A DNA stretch of 64,000 nt from Erythrobacter sp. Alg231-14 (GTDB lineage: Bacteria > Pseudomonadota > Alphaproteobacteria > Sphingomonadales > Sphingomonadaceae): NCBI RefSeq assembly GCF_900149685.1, contig NZ_LT702999.1, positions 2,790,001 to 2,854,000 on the forward strand, written 5' to 3'. Under the pieces are notes generated by a model that saw nothing but the letters and a program-made list of their open reading frames with translations, was not told the origin of the DNA and made no database searches. A program made the position numbers and the translations under genes. Below are positions 17,208 to 21,328 of the stretch, piece after piece. Every line of letters starts with the position of its first letter. The first letter of the stretch is position 1.

Positions 17208-17447
17208 TTAATCCGCATCCGCCGCATGGGGCGTTGCCTCGTCGCTGGGTCGATATTCCAAAATGTCGCCCGGCTGACAGTCCAATTCGTGACACAAAGC
17301 CTCCAAAGTTCGATACCGAACGCCTTGCACTTTGCCTGTTTTCAACAGCGACAAATTGGTGTTGGAAATGCCAATCCGCTCGGCCAGTTCTTTCAAACTG
17401 ATCTTTCGTTTGGCCATCATCACGTCAAGATTTGTGACTATCGGCAT
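17208..17447 (-). CDS. XRE-family transcriptional regulator (YozG-like)
   Basis: A 79-residue Cro/C1 helix-turn-helix protein. The HTH covers residues 14-36 (ISLKELAERIGISNTNLSLL), followed by the family's YRTLEALCHELDCQPGDIL. No sensor domain. Its start shares one base with the DUF2975 stop (TAATG). This two-gene arrangement is common: a small XRE repressor with a DUF2975 membrane partner. Autoregulation is likely given the inverted repeats ahead of the pair. Confidence 0.9.
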   Translation of the reverse strand: MPIVTNLDVMMAKRKISLKELAERIGISNTNLSLLKTGKVQGVRYRTLEALCHELDCQPGDILEYRPSDEATPHAADAD

Positions 17448-18073
17448 TACACCACACTTTCGCTATCATTGCGGTACGCGGTTCCCGTTTTGAACGCCTC
17501 AGAAAACAGCAGCGCCAAACCGCCCAATGCGAACGTAATGATGGGCGGATCATAATGCAGCCAAATATTCGTCGCCCCCTGCACATCCCACGACAATGAT
17601 GGGTGCAAGACAGTCCCATCGACAGGCGTCACAGCGGCAAGGATAGCGGGTTGGAGAACCAGCGCCTGCACCACGGATAACGCGCACACTGTAAGCAGGA
17701 TGTGTCCAATTTTCCTAAGCGCTTGTGCGTTTTCGGCGTTGATCAATTCGCCTTGCGCAAAACCGGTTAGAACAGAACGAAGCACCATCAGTGCAGCGAT
17801 AAAAAGCGCAATTGTCGCGAAGGAAAAGCCCAGATCGATCGCGTGCCAAAGCGGCTGATCCGAAATTTGCAGAGTGCCGTCCGTGAAATTGACCATCGCG
17901 CTATCACTCATCGCCATTTCAAGGCCATAGGCTCCCGCCTGAACCGGCCATTGCAGCACGCCAAAATCCCCATTCAACGCGGATGCCGTCGCCCGGCCGA
18001 TCAAAAGGAAAGCGGCGATAAAGAACAAGGCGATCACCGCCTCAAGCACAAATCGGATGAATTTTGCAGACAT
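17447..18073 (-). CDS. DUF2975 membrane protein
   Basis: 208 residues from ATG 18073. A GGGAG lies six bases ahead of this ATG and three bases ahead of ATG 18076; the frame is open back to ATG 18124. Four hydrophobic helices: about 5-30, a second near 75-100 after an extracytoplasmic stretch, then 120-145 and 170-190. The RSVLTGFAQGELINAENAQALRKIGHI segment is the diagnostic DUF2975 loop. Function is not established for the family; it is regularly paired with a YozG-like XRE regulator, as here. Confidence 0.88.
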   Translation of the reverse strand: MSAKFIRFVLEAVIALFFIAAFLLIGRATASALNGDFGVLQWPVQAGAYGLEMAMSDSAMVNFTDGTLQISDQPLWHAIDLGFSFATIALFIAALMVLRSVLTGFAQGELINAENAQALRKIGHILLTVCALSVVQALVLQPAILAAVTPVDGTVLHPSLSWDVQGATNIWLHYDPPIITFALGGLALLFSEAFKTGTAYRNDSESVV

Positions 18074-18079
18074 CATAAA

Positions 18080-18101
18080 CTCCCAGACCTCAATCTGGGA
18101 G
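18080..18101 (-). promoter_or_regulatory. Hairpin covering the DUF2975 ribosome binding site
   Basis: On the minus strand CTCCCAGA (18101-18094), loop TTGAGG, then TCTGGGAG (18087-18080) form a perfect 8-bp stem. The GGGAG ribosome binding site is inside the 3' arm, and the start codons follow three and six bases later. As RNA this would block initiation unless melted. It also falls inside the longer possible frame from ATG 18124. Confidence 0.65.
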
Positions 18102-18121
18102 CGTTGATAGCGTCGAAATTT

Positions 18122-18155
18122 CATAAAACAACATGTATTTTATGTTTTACATAAA
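18122..18155. promoter_or_regulatory. Nested inverted repeats, candidate operator of the DUF2975-XRE pair
   Basis: Two overlapping inverted repeats in an AT-rich stretch: CATAAAA-N9-TTTTATG (18122-18144) and TTTATGT-TTT-ACATAAA (18139-18155). They lie 50-80 bases upstream of the DUF2975 start, where the promoter must be, and the small XRE protein encoded just downstream is the obvious candidate ligand (inference). Confidence 0.5.
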
Positions 18156-18169
18156 TTTCTTACTGCATA

Positions 18170-18892
18170 TCAAAATTTCAACGTCACACTACGAGCCAAA
18201 GAAGGCGATAGGGATTCCGCCCATCTCAACGCCTTCGTCATACCGATATTCGCTTCATTCCGATCTTTCTCAAGCGCTTCGACAATCTGCCGTGCGCATT
18301 CTTCGGCGGGCATTTTCTTCATCGGATTGCCGTCGTTCATTTGCGTATCAACAACGGGAGGCAATGCCTCAATCACGCGCACCGCCGTCTCTTTTAGCTG
18401 TTCCCGCAAGGACAGGGTGTAAAAGCGCAATCCCGATTTGGTCGCACAATAGACCGGCTGACGCGCGGCGGGAGAAATCGCCAAACCGCTGGTCACGTTT
18501 ACGATGGCGGAGGATGGGCGCGACTTTAGCGCATCGATCAAACCAGCAATTAGACGGATTGGGGCGTTCAAATTGGCATAGATCGCAACATCGGCCGCGT
18601 CCGCATCCACTGCACCTTTACGAAAATCGTGATCGACCAATTGTCCAGCATTGTTCAACAAGACATCCAAGGGACGATCGCCCCATTGCGCGATAAGGGC
18701 ATCAACCCCGGCCGCGTTGGATAGGTCCGCGGCCATTGTTTCAAACCCCGCCGCTTCCATCGCGGCGATCCGTTCGGGATTGCGCCCGGTCACAACAACG
18801 TGAGCGCCCTTATCCTTTAATTGCAGCGCAATCTCGCGGCCAATGCCGTTGGTCCCACCGGTCAGTAAGACACTCTTTTCATTCAGATTCAT
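18170..18892 (-). CDS. Short-chain dehydrogenase/reductase (DltE-like)
   Basis: 240-residue classical SDR. NAD(P)-binding TGGTNGIGRE at 11-20, NNAG at 82-85, then catalytic VTSG and YCATK (Tyr/Lys). Position 37 in the VTGRNPERIA loop suggests NADP. The closest pattern I know is the DltE-like group of single-domain oxidoreductases; the substrate is unknown. It starts two bases after the stop of the epimerase-like gene, so both are cotranscribed, probably as an oxidoreductase pair. Confidence 0.87.
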   Translation of the reverse strand: MNLNEKSVLLTGGTNGIGREIALQLKDKGAHVVVTGRNPERIAAMEAAGFETMAADLSNAAGVDALIAQWGDRPLDVLLNNAGQLVDHDFRKGAVDADAADVAIYANLNAPIRLIAGLIDALKSRPSSAIVNVTSGLAISPAARQPVYCATKSGLRFYTLSLREQLKETAVRVIEALPPVVDTQMNDGNPMKKMPAEECARQIVEALEKDRNEANIGMTKALRWAESLSPSLARSVTLKF

Positions 18893-18894
18893 GA

Positions 18895-19917
18895 TTATTT
18901 GATCAACCCATGTTCGGCCAAGCTGCGCAGCGTGTCTTCCAACGTCTGCTCAGCGGCAATGTAGTCAAAGCCCAAGACCTGGGCCGAGTGTGAACCATCG
19001 ACATCGCGCGTTTTGCCAAGCTCGCTTTTCAACATCTTCATCTCGTTCAAGAATGGCGACAGCAATTTAACCAGAAAATCGGGCATTGGCCGCGTGGGCG
19101 TCTTTCCCGCAAGCTCAGGCGCGCGGGCACGCAATGTGGCGGCCATGTCGCGCATCCACATGAACTTTTCCTGCAAAGGGAAACGGCCATCGCGCACCGT
19201 GTCATCGGGCAATTCCAACGCCGCAAAATGCGCCCGCACAACATCGCGCACATCGACTACGCCAATACCCATATTGGGCGCCAACGGGATCGATCCATCG
19301 ACCATCTTTTGAACCATCTCAATCGATGTCGACAAATCGTCATTCGCGATCGGTCCGAAAACGGCGACCGGATTGATCGAACAGAACACCATGTCTGGTG
19401 CGTTCTGCGCGACCCATGCACGTGCCTCTTTTTCCGCGATGGTTTTGGATTTTGCGTATGCGGCCACGCTGGGGGACGCCGCGTCGGTCCAGTCGGAATG
19501 ATCGAAGTGCTTCTTTTCCAACGGGTGACCATAGGCTATCGCGGCGGCCGAGCTTGTCAAAACGAACCGCTTGACCCCCGACCCATCGGCAAAGCGCAAC
19601 GCCCGCAAGGCACCTTCGCGCGCAGGGACAATAAGTTCATCGTCGTTCTTGGGTGCAGCCAAGGGAAAGGGAGAGGCCACATGCGCAACCGCATCGCATC
19701 CAGCGCACGCTTCCGCCCACCCTGCATCGCTTTCCAAATCCGCTTCGAATACTGCAAGCCGTTCGCCCGCATCGCCCCAACGCGTGCGCAAACGCAGCTC
19801 GCTTTTGGCTTTGCTGCGCACGGTGGTGTGAACCGTTTTACCGGCGGCGAGCAATTGATCTATAAGCTCGCCGCCAATATATCCGGTCCCGCCGGTTACC
19901 AAAATTGTGCTCGACAT
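18895..19917 (-). CDS. NAD-dependent epimerase/dehydratase, dihydroflavonol-reductase-like
   Basis: 340-residue extended SDR. N-terminal TGGTGYIGGELIDQL nucleotide-binding motif, VAHVASPFPL, VLTSSAAAIAYG with the active Ser, and the catalytic YAKSKTIAEKEA. This pattern is that of the dihydroflavonol-4-reductase/cinnamoyl-CoA reductase group in bacteria, whose substrates are mostly aldehydes or ketones. It runs tail to head with the SDR gene (2-base gap) and follows gor. Confidence 0.87.
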   Translation of the reverse strand: MSSTILVTGGTGYIGGELIDQLLAAGKTVHTTVRSKAKSELRLRTRWGDAGERLAVFEADLESDAGWAEACAGCDAVAHVASPFPLAAPKNDDELIVPAREGALRALRFADGSGVKRFVLTSSAAAIAYGHPLEKKHFDHSDWTDAASPSVAAYAKSKTIAEKEARAWVAQNAPDMVFCSINPVAVFGPIANDDLSTSIEMVQKMVDGSIPLAPNMGIGVVDVRDVVRAHFAALELPDDTVRDGRFPLQEKFMWMRDMAATLRARAPELAGKTPTRPMPDFLVKLLSPFLNEMKMLKSELGKTRDVDGSHSAQVLGFDYIAAEQTLEDTLRSLAEHGLIK

Positions 19918-19975
19918 CTTGCTTTCCTACTCCCCGTTCGACGGGAGCGTAGTCGGGCCAGTTGCAAAGCGCAAT

Positions 19976-21328
19976 TTACTTCAGGAGCACCAACTCTTCG
20001 GCCATGCTGGGGTGAATTGCGGTGGTTGCATCGAAATCGGCCTTTGTCAGCTTTGCTTTGATCGCGACCGCCGCCGCCTGAATGATCTCCGCTGATTCCG
20101 GACCAATCATGTGCAGGCCAAGAACCTGCCCCGTTTCGCCATGGCACACCATCTTATAAAGCCCGCGTTCCATCCGGTCCGAAAAGATGTTTTTCATCGG
20201 ACGGAAGTCGGACGTGTAGACCGCAATATCGCCATGCTCTTTGCGCGCTTCGGCTTCGGTCAGACCAACCGACGCGATCGAAGGTTGTGAGAACACCGCA
20301 CTAGGGATGCATGAATGGTCCACGGCGCGTGGATTGTTCCCAAACACCGTATCGGCAAAGGCATGCCCTTCGCGGATGGCCACCGGGGTCAATTGCACAC
20401 GGTTGGTCACATCACCGACGGCATAGATGCTGTCACAGCTGGTCTTGCTGTAGGCATCGACGAGGATTTCGCCGGCTTTGCCTAGCTCAACGCCCGCCGT
20501 TTCGAGGCCCAGACCTTCGCTGTTCGGTTTGCGTCCAGTGGCGACCAAGATTCGATCAACTTGCTTGGTCACGCCATTAGTAAGCGTCACGGTGAACGAT
20601 CCATCATCGTTCTTCGCCACGCTATCAACGACAGTGCCCAATTGCAGGTCCATGCCGCGCGCTTTCATCACAACCGGCAATCGATCAACGATGTCCGAAT
20701 CGTAAGTGCGCAGGATCGTATCCGTGCGATTGACCAGTGTAACATCACCGCCCAATGCGTTGAAAATACCGGCGAATTCTACGGCAATATACCCGCCGCC
20801 CAACACCATCAAACGTTGGGGGAATTCTTCGACATGGAAAATCTCGTTGGACGTGATGCAATGTTCATTGCCATCAAATTCGGGAAGCATCGGCCACCCA
20901 CCCGTTGCAACGAGGATCTTCTTCGCCGTGATTTCTTTGCCCGATGCAAGCCGCACGGAATTGGGCCCGGTGATGACGGCGCGTTCGGAATACACCTCGA
21001 CCCCGGCATTGCCCAATGTGCCGTCATACAGCCCTTCGAGGCGATCGACGTCGCTGTTCACGAAATCGCGCAGCGTCGGCCAATCAAAGCTCTTTTCGCC
21101 TAGGGTCCACCCTTTATGCGCCGCATGGCCCAATTCTTCGGCGAACATGGAAGCGTAAACCAACATCTTTTTGGGCACACAGCCGCGAATAACACAGGTG
21201 CCGCCCATCCGGTATTCCTCTGCGATGGCGACTTTTGCGCCATGCGAGGCCGAAATACGGCTGGCCCGGACACCGCCGGAACCGCCACCAATTGTGAAAA
21301 GATCGTAGTCAAATTCGGCCTCAGCCAT
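19976..21328 (-). CDS. gor: Glutathione-disulfide reductase
   Basis: 450-residue flavoprotein disulfide reductase, reducing glutathione disulfide with NADPH. FAD motif TIGGGSGGVRAS at 12-23, redox pair C45/C50 in GGTCVIRGCVPKK, second nucleotide fold VLGGGYIAVEFAG, and C-terminal AIHPSMAEELV with the active His-Glu pair. The GGTCVIRGC spacing and HPSMAEE rather than HAHPT mark glutathione reductase over dihydrolipoamide or mercuric reductase. Likely monocistronic from the promoter noted just upstream. Confidence 0.95.
   Translation of the reverse strand: MAEAEFDYDLFTIGGGSGGVRASRISASHGAKVAIAEEYRMGGTCVIRGCVPKKMLVYASMFAEELGHAAHKGWTLGEKSFDWPTLRDFVNSDVDRLEGLYDGTLGNAGVEVYSERAVITGPNSVRLASGKEITAKKILVATGGWPMLPEFDGNEHCITSNEIFHVEEFPQRLMVLGGGYIAVEFAGIFNALGGDVTLVNRTDTILRTYDSDIVDRLPVVMKARGMDLQLGTVVDSVAKNDDGSFTVTLTNGVTKQVDRILVATGRKPNSEGLGLETAGVELGKAGEILVDAYSKTSCDSIYAVGDVTNRVQLTPVAIREGHAFADTVFGNNPRAVDHSCIPSAVFSQPSIASVGLTEAEARKEHGDIAVYTSDFRPMKNIFSDRMERGLYKMVCHGETGQVLGLHMIGPESAEIIQAAAVAIKAKLTKADFDATTAIHPSMAEELVLLK

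Follow-up and report, generated by a model that had tools for sequence, protein, structure and literature searches.

A hairpin over the Shine-Dalgarno sequence of a DUF2975-like/XRE operon in Erythrobacter and its relatives: a candidate silencer of read-through transcripts built into the promoter

Why should a bacterial operon carry a hairpin over its own ribosome binding site, and how would its message then be translated? This question is raised by a locus within the 64,000-nucleotide stretch of Erythrobacter sp. Alg231-14 DNA analyzed here (the window), whose features are collected in Table 1. On the minus strand CTCCCAGA pairs perfectly with TCTGGGAG and buries the Shine-Dalgarno (SD) motif GGGAG just 5' of two start codons, as can be read directly from the sequence: the 3' arm is followed by TTT, by an ATG at 18076-18074 and by a second ATG at 18073-18071. 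A sequence-only reading of the same DNA had described an 8-bp stem with a 6-base loop and the SD in its 3' arm close to the starts, and we confirm this arrangement on the minus strand. Folding of the leader, a check proposed with that reading, gave -14.3 kcal/mol for the 29-nt hairpin element (z -3.46), with none of 200 shuffled sequences as stable. When flanks were included, the z-score was -2.40 at 71 nt (4 of 200 shuffles as good), -1.27 at 91 nt (17 of 200) and -3.27 at 131 nt (0 of 200). Perfect 8-bp stems are not rare in the window, since a scan of all 64 kb for such stems with loops of 3-8 nt listed ten (two of them one place in different registers), and the case for this hairpin therefore rests on its placement on the SD and on pairing in relatives. 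The evidence on both leads us to conclude that the hairpin over the SD does exist and that related bacteria carry counterparts of it.

Table 1. Features of the operon and its upstream region, with positions in the window.
Feature	Positions	Strand	Basis or remark
Short-chain dehydrogenase (SDR) gene, co-directional	18170..18892	minus	Pfam; possible source of run-in RNA
Palindromic operator TTTATGT-AAA-ACATAAA (TTTAYGTNNNACRTAAA), 17 bp	18139..18155	minus	Predicted
Predicted -35 element TTGTTT	18126..18131	minus	TTG shortly after the operator in 20 of 21 close genes
Predicted -10 box TATCAA	18104..18109	minus	Column signal anchored on TTG; TATCA also in outer helix
5' arm (anti-SD) CTCCCAGA	18094..18101	minus	Sequence, fold, self-versus-swapped pairing test
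Predicted transcription start, inside 5' arm	18096..18097	minus	Inferred from published commonest promoter spacings
Loop TTGAGG	18088..18093	minus	Sequence; other loops in relatives
3' arm TCTGGGAG	18080..18087	minus	Holds SD GGGAG (18080-18084); sequence, fold
DUF2975-like membrane protein gene	17447..18073	minus	Pfam match below cut-off; alignment A1; hydrophobic segments
XRE regulator gene (HTH_26)	17208..17447	minus	Start overlaps DUF2975-like stop (TAATG)

The two genes of the operon had been described as a DUF2975 membrane protein paired with an XRE regulator. The regulator stands, as it matched Pfam HTH_26 (PF13443) with 81.9 bits, above the cut-off of 22, whereas the membrane protein scored 24.1 bits against Pfam DUF2975 (PF11188; E 3.7e-5), short of the curated cut-off of 27, and is for this reason called DUF2975-like here. 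Searches of NCBIfam and the PDB with the XRE protein gave distant relatives only. The likely start codon of the DUF2975-like gene is ATG 18073, with ATG 18076 also in frame, because in alignment A1 the SD-preceded starts of homologs align with ATG 18073 (MSAKF), which lies 6 nt after GGGAG. A start at ATG 18124, named in the earlier reading as the observation that would count against it, looks unlikely on this evidence; that codon is in frame, is without an SD under our recognized-SD rule and is not supported. Of 20 loci listed, 19 have the XRE start overlapping the DUF2975-like stop (L011 has an adjacent TAGATG), and given the overlap TAATG in the window, translation of the XRE regulator is probably coupled to that of the DUF2975-like protein.

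Protein searches found relatives in 16 of 396 genomes of the same order, the window's own included, and in 13 of 397 genomes of the same family at E 1e-10; several genera were searched too, a scan of named genomes with a longer operator pattern yielded 11 stretches, and a protein scan of named genomes found no relative. The retrieved loci, a sample and not a census, hold at least 112 distinct family members, and at least 21 of these, the window gene included, scored above 150 bits and constitute what we call the close group. From the other 91 members, 83 with a start and a recognized SD were tested as distant paralogs, 8 having been dropped beforehand. The named records among the relatives are from Erythrobacter, Qipengyuania, Pontixanthobacter and Aurantiacibacter.

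All 21 close genes have the palindrome TTTAYGT-NNN-ACRTAAA on their 5' side, 42-67 nt ahead of the start codon, and we consider it probably an operator bound by the partner XRE regulator. The pattern matches the window's own genome once, at this locus, and matches 11 of the 397 family genomes (3 for a reversed control pattern), seven of which belong to the close group. The loci in the remaining four (L030, L031, L036, and L038) contain no DUF2975 family member, and their operator-like palindromes have other center bases. Two close genes, L004 and L016, have the operator and lack the lock on the SD. The block TTGCGAATCG, common in relatives and located at 18122-18131 (minus) in the window, exceeds a -35 hexamer and may be a second regulator contact; in L010 TTGCGAATCGCAA is palindromic, and the window copy has diverged to TTGTTTTATG. 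Several distant paralogs carry another palindrome, unlike the close group: in L131, L057, L133, L115, and L122 these are AT-rich and of the TTATCG/CGATAA type, are perhaps operators of those paralogs' own regulators, and in the first three sit at a TTGAC box.

The arms of the hairpin differ from gene to gene (for example CCTCCAA/TTGGAGG in L006, CTCATC/GATGAG in L009, CTCCCC/GGGGAG in L011 and TCCTCCA/TGGAGGA in L010), as do the loop sequences. Because an alignment fitted to the structure was to be avoided, we relied on a swap test, in which the duplex energy of a gene's own upstream and SD segments is compared with that of segments exchanged among genes. A sequence-only alignment (A2; 19 genes, without L015 and L016) does not hold the register of the stem since SD spacing differs, and no pairs were therefore counted on it, the swap tests taking its place. 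Across the 21 genes the self mean was -12.17 kcal/mol versus -8.91 kcal/mol for swapped segments (sd 0.54), none of 20,000 permutations was as low, and the exchange of arms between genes costs about 3 kcal/mol of pairing. The outcome was the same (0/20,000) for 14 chosen representatives that included the hairpin-less L004 and L016, the choice of representatives being the sole way in which relatedness was handled in the pairing tests, and was not significant inside the window's own clade of four (1,713/20,000). The stem in relatives, whose examination the sequence-only reading had also proposed, has thus retained its pairing though the arm sequences differ, and as judged by these comparisons the hairpin is conserved as pairing rather than as sequence.

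A strict contiguous-stem test (against 1,000 mononucleotide shuffles for each close gene and 200 for each paralog) was significant at p<0.05 in 11 of the 21 close genes versus 1 of the 83 distant paralogs. This measure is blind to bulged stems and to stems over fewer than four SD bases, and eight genes scored 0 (L013, L020, L005, L009, L019, L138, L004, and L016). The mean SD openness accompanying it was 0.17 in the close genes and 0.38 in the distant paralogs. Both tests bear on the explanation that the hairpin is a by-product, in which C-rich sequence close to the start site pairs with a purine-rich SD through composition, with no selected function. We regard this as improbable, given that arm swaps among genes of the same layout lose pairing and that a comparable stem occurs in just the one SD-bearing paralog, even though short leaders do bring the two elements close and 4 of the 21 genes are without the lock.

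Pairing extends beyond the hairpin. In the fold of the window sequence TATCA pairs with TGATG, and this outer helix would lock the start codon as well in run-in RNA, that is, in transcripts entering the operon from an upstream gene. The box can pair with the AUG in 14 of 20 genes (L015 left out), a count that is not independent because the rule by which the box was picked favors YAT. In those 14, the base after the box pairs with position -1 in 12, as T-A, C-G, G-C, A-T, or T-G, where the permutation mean was 5.6 and none of 20,000 permutations reached 12. Taken together, the hairpin and the outer helix point to selection on RNA pairing. This is relevant to whether the inverted repeat might act as DNA, as an operator over the start site for the XRE protein or another repressor, with RNA pairing incidental. 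XRE proteins bind palindromes and the repeat overlaps the predicted -10 box and start site, a usual position for a repressor; yet pairing is maintained across widely differing arm sequences, the outer helix of L001 and L002 relies on U-G pairs with the AUG, and another palindrome, near letter-for-letter constant, is already present upstream in 21 of 21 genes. We consequently consider a DNA element quite improbable.

The position from which the operon's own RNA would start is suggested by a TTG that follows the operator and is missing only in L015 of the 21 close genes. A box lies 16-18 nt beyond it (16 nt in the window), which is the expected place of a sphingomonad -10 box. When columns were anchored on the TTG with the spacer unadjusted, the box (23-25 nt on) had 0.4-0.9 bit and the C-rich 5' arm (30-34 nt on) 0.3-0.9 bit; with anchoring on the start codon, positions -40 to -26 had at most 0.21 bit and position -25 had 0.54, and the SD (-10 to -8) had 0.66-1.17. 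By this measure the box and the 5' arm are spaced from the TTG, not from the start codon, as expected of promoter elements. In excerpts of a study of Novosphingobium, the -7T is missing from more than 80% of the sigma70 promoters, and the commonest spacings of mapped promoters are a 17 bp spacer and 6 bp from the -10 box to the transcription start (PMC8407463). Like most of those promoters, the predicted -10 box is without the E. coli -7T, and a consensus promoter scan of the window did not call the predicted promoter, a weak one when judged against the E. coli consensus. From the published spacings we infer a start inside the 5' arm, a position that derives from the promoter reading itself and so is not independent of it. 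With such a start, the greater part of the anti-SD bases would be absent from mRNA made at the operon's own promoter. The center of the operator would be at about -50 from the predicted start, a distance that would be fitting for an activator.

By eye, the distant paralogs L131 and L057 have TTGACA or TTGACG, 17 nt and CATATC, a similar -10 form with a consensus-like -35, and in L131, the sole paralog with an SD stem, the predicted start is also inside the 5' arm. L015, a distant member of the close group with 42 nt from operator to start codon, has a different SD hairpin, at whose 5' arm there is a possible promoter (TTGAAC-16-TATATC).

Along the minus strand the genes run SDR, DUF2975-like, XRE, with the SDR stop 14 nt ahead of the operator, and no terminator-like site was listed for the window in the gap from that stop to the hairpin. 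Of the 19 close loci that could be assessed (L025 and L019 could not), 17 have a co-directional open reading frame ending 9-44 nt ahead of the operator, frames having been chosen by eye in places where the antisense strand is open too. When the longest frame was taken automatically, only 14 of the 21 loci had a co-directional one within 150 nt. No co-directional upstream frame was seen in L015 and L016, of which L015 has a hairpin nonetheless. The co-directional frames near the operator and the gap without a listed terminator-like site make run-in transcription from the upstream gene plausible. Judging from their C-termini, we take the upstream frames in relatives to encode TlyA-like methyltransferase, glutathione reductase-like and epimerase-like proteins. 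The DUF2975/XRE pair of relatives follows an SDR, epimerase-like or glutathione reductase-like frame, and these are consecutive neighbors in the window (17208-21328), which suggests a single ancestral locus that has lost genes, together with another location behind the TlyA-like frame.

The predicted accessibility of the SD in the two kinds of transcript differs. With the SD defined as closed when less than 0.25 unpaired, as predicted at 30°C, it is closed in run-in RNA in 17 of the 21 close genes, the others being L012 (0.45), L003 (0.49), L004 (0.63), and L016 (0.99). In all 17 at least 67% of the SD pairing partners are 5' of the predicted start. The pairing center is 1.5-4.5 nt ahead of that start in 14 of the 17 and 16-28 nt ahead in L005, L020, and L015; the SD in L005 (center -19) and L020 (-28) is closed by farther-upstream sequence, not by the local arm, which is weak in Erythrobacter sp. 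NAP1 (L005/L024). Mean SD openness was 0.17 in run-in RNA and 0.50 in RNA beginning at the predicted start (Wilcoxon p 0.0013, uncorrected for relatedness), and 0.14 versus 0.51 with L010, L004, and L015 anchored on CTG and a shorter upstream stretch. The corresponding values for the window gene at 30°C were 0.00 and 0.63. In L003, L004, and L016 SD openness falls instead of rising with RNA from the predicted start, and in L008, L138, and L015 it reaches just 0.24-0.29.

These predictions also concern what might open the hairpin. The sequence-only reading had offered translational control, for example through thermal or protein-dependent melting. Translational control of the operon by the hairpin is likely, because the hairpin hides the SD and relatives keep the pairing despite different arms. 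The two proposed triggers fare less well. In the window's run-in transcript the SD had an unpaired probability of 0.00 at 20, 30, 37, and 45°C, and an Rfam search of 18300 back to 17900 found no thermometer, its single chance match being to the miRNA model lsy-6 (E 3.5). We therefore rejected an RNA thermometer, the stem being predicted closed at 45°C, with no Rfam match and with loops that differ; the differing loops among relatives likewise speak against a loop-specific binding protein. More generally, the whole hairpin could be part of the main mRNA as a regulated switch in the leader that opens with temperature, through a protein or small RNA, or on translation of upstream codons. A promoter further upstream would make the hairpin always present, and the locking of both SD and start codon with gene-specific pairing is consistent with such a switch. 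Set against these points are the absence of predicted melting in the window gene up to 45°C, the variable loops without an Rfam match, and the spacing of box and arm, which is steadier relative to the TTG than relative to the start codon, and we think a leader switch rather unlikely.

The computations support the hairpin, its gene-specific pairing, the spacing of arm and box from the TTG and the gene context. We are moderately confident that the hairpin silences read-through RNA as a built-in part of the promoter, the operon's own message starting inside the hairpin and so escaping it. According to this preferred explanation, run-in transcripts from the upstream co-directional gene would carry both arms, and their SD would be locked by the hairpin and their start codon by the outer helix. 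Neither the DUF2975-like protein nor the XRE regulator, if its translation is coupled as we expect, would then be made from such RNA. RNA from the promoter of the operon itself (TTG, 16-18 nt, YA-box) would start inside the 5' arm, past most of the anti-SD bases, and the resulting short leader would leave the SD more open. A lock on run-in RNA together with an open short leader would reserve expression for the promoter beside the putative XRE operator. A more elaborate proposal, which we put forward tentatively, is that promoter and lock are one stretch of DNA, in which the -10 box doubles as the anti-start-codon and the start-site stretch as the anti-SD, so that the operon would be translatable only from its own promoter and a self-activating XRE/membrane-protein switch would be shielded from being tripped by run-in transcription.

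If the silencer explanation is true, insulation from run-in transcription can be written into the promoter itself in a regulator operon of a bacterial chromosome, across relatives of Erythrobacter, and an anti-SD at the transcription start becomes a signature that can be searched for. The obscure DUF2975-like/HTH_26 pair would also gain a candidate operator and a testable rule of expression. DUF2975 is rarely mentioned in the literature searched, in which the arrangement of an anti-SD at the transcription start of such an operon was not described. Our literature search found no dRNA-seq work on Erythrobacter, the matches listed for YozG had nothing on this gene, and the match for run-in RBS hairpins in chromosomal genes concerned, in the excerpts available, type I toxins.

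The proposed arrangement has likenesses to several known systems. The distant DUF2975 paralogs encode a distantly related membrane protein, but a comparable SD stem is confined to the single case noted above. Run-in transcripts of the IS10 and Tn5 transposase genes fold over the RBS and the elements' own transcripts start inside the hairpin, whose arms come from the element ends; here, too, run-in RNA is predicted to fold over the RBS and the operon's own RNA to start inside. RNA thermometers such as ROSE and FourU resemble this operon in that the 3' arm of their leader hairpin holds the SD, but the stem here is G-C-rich, is closed at 45°C in silico and has the predicted transcription start inside its 5' arm.

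Genes just downstream of others face their neighbors' transcription, and phage T4 answers with start sites inside an RBS hairpin. As described in excerpts of two reports on T4 gene e and I-TevI, longer upstream transcripts form a hairpin that hides the RBS, whereas transcripts from proximal promoters are without the hairpin's 5' portion and are translated, and I-TevI represses its own promoter as well (PMC3014915, PMC2988022). To the extent of those excerpts, the operon described here is like gene e and I-TevI in having an SD-hiding hairpin in the longer RNA (here a prediction, with openness below 0.25 in 17 of 21 genes). It is unlike them, with their phage late promoters, in being a chromosomal XRE/DUF2975-like operon with a predicted sigma70-type promoter, and in having the anti-SD at the predicted start and a -10 box that can also base-pair with the start codon. 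The resemblance to the T4 genes is accordingly a likeness of working, not of descent.
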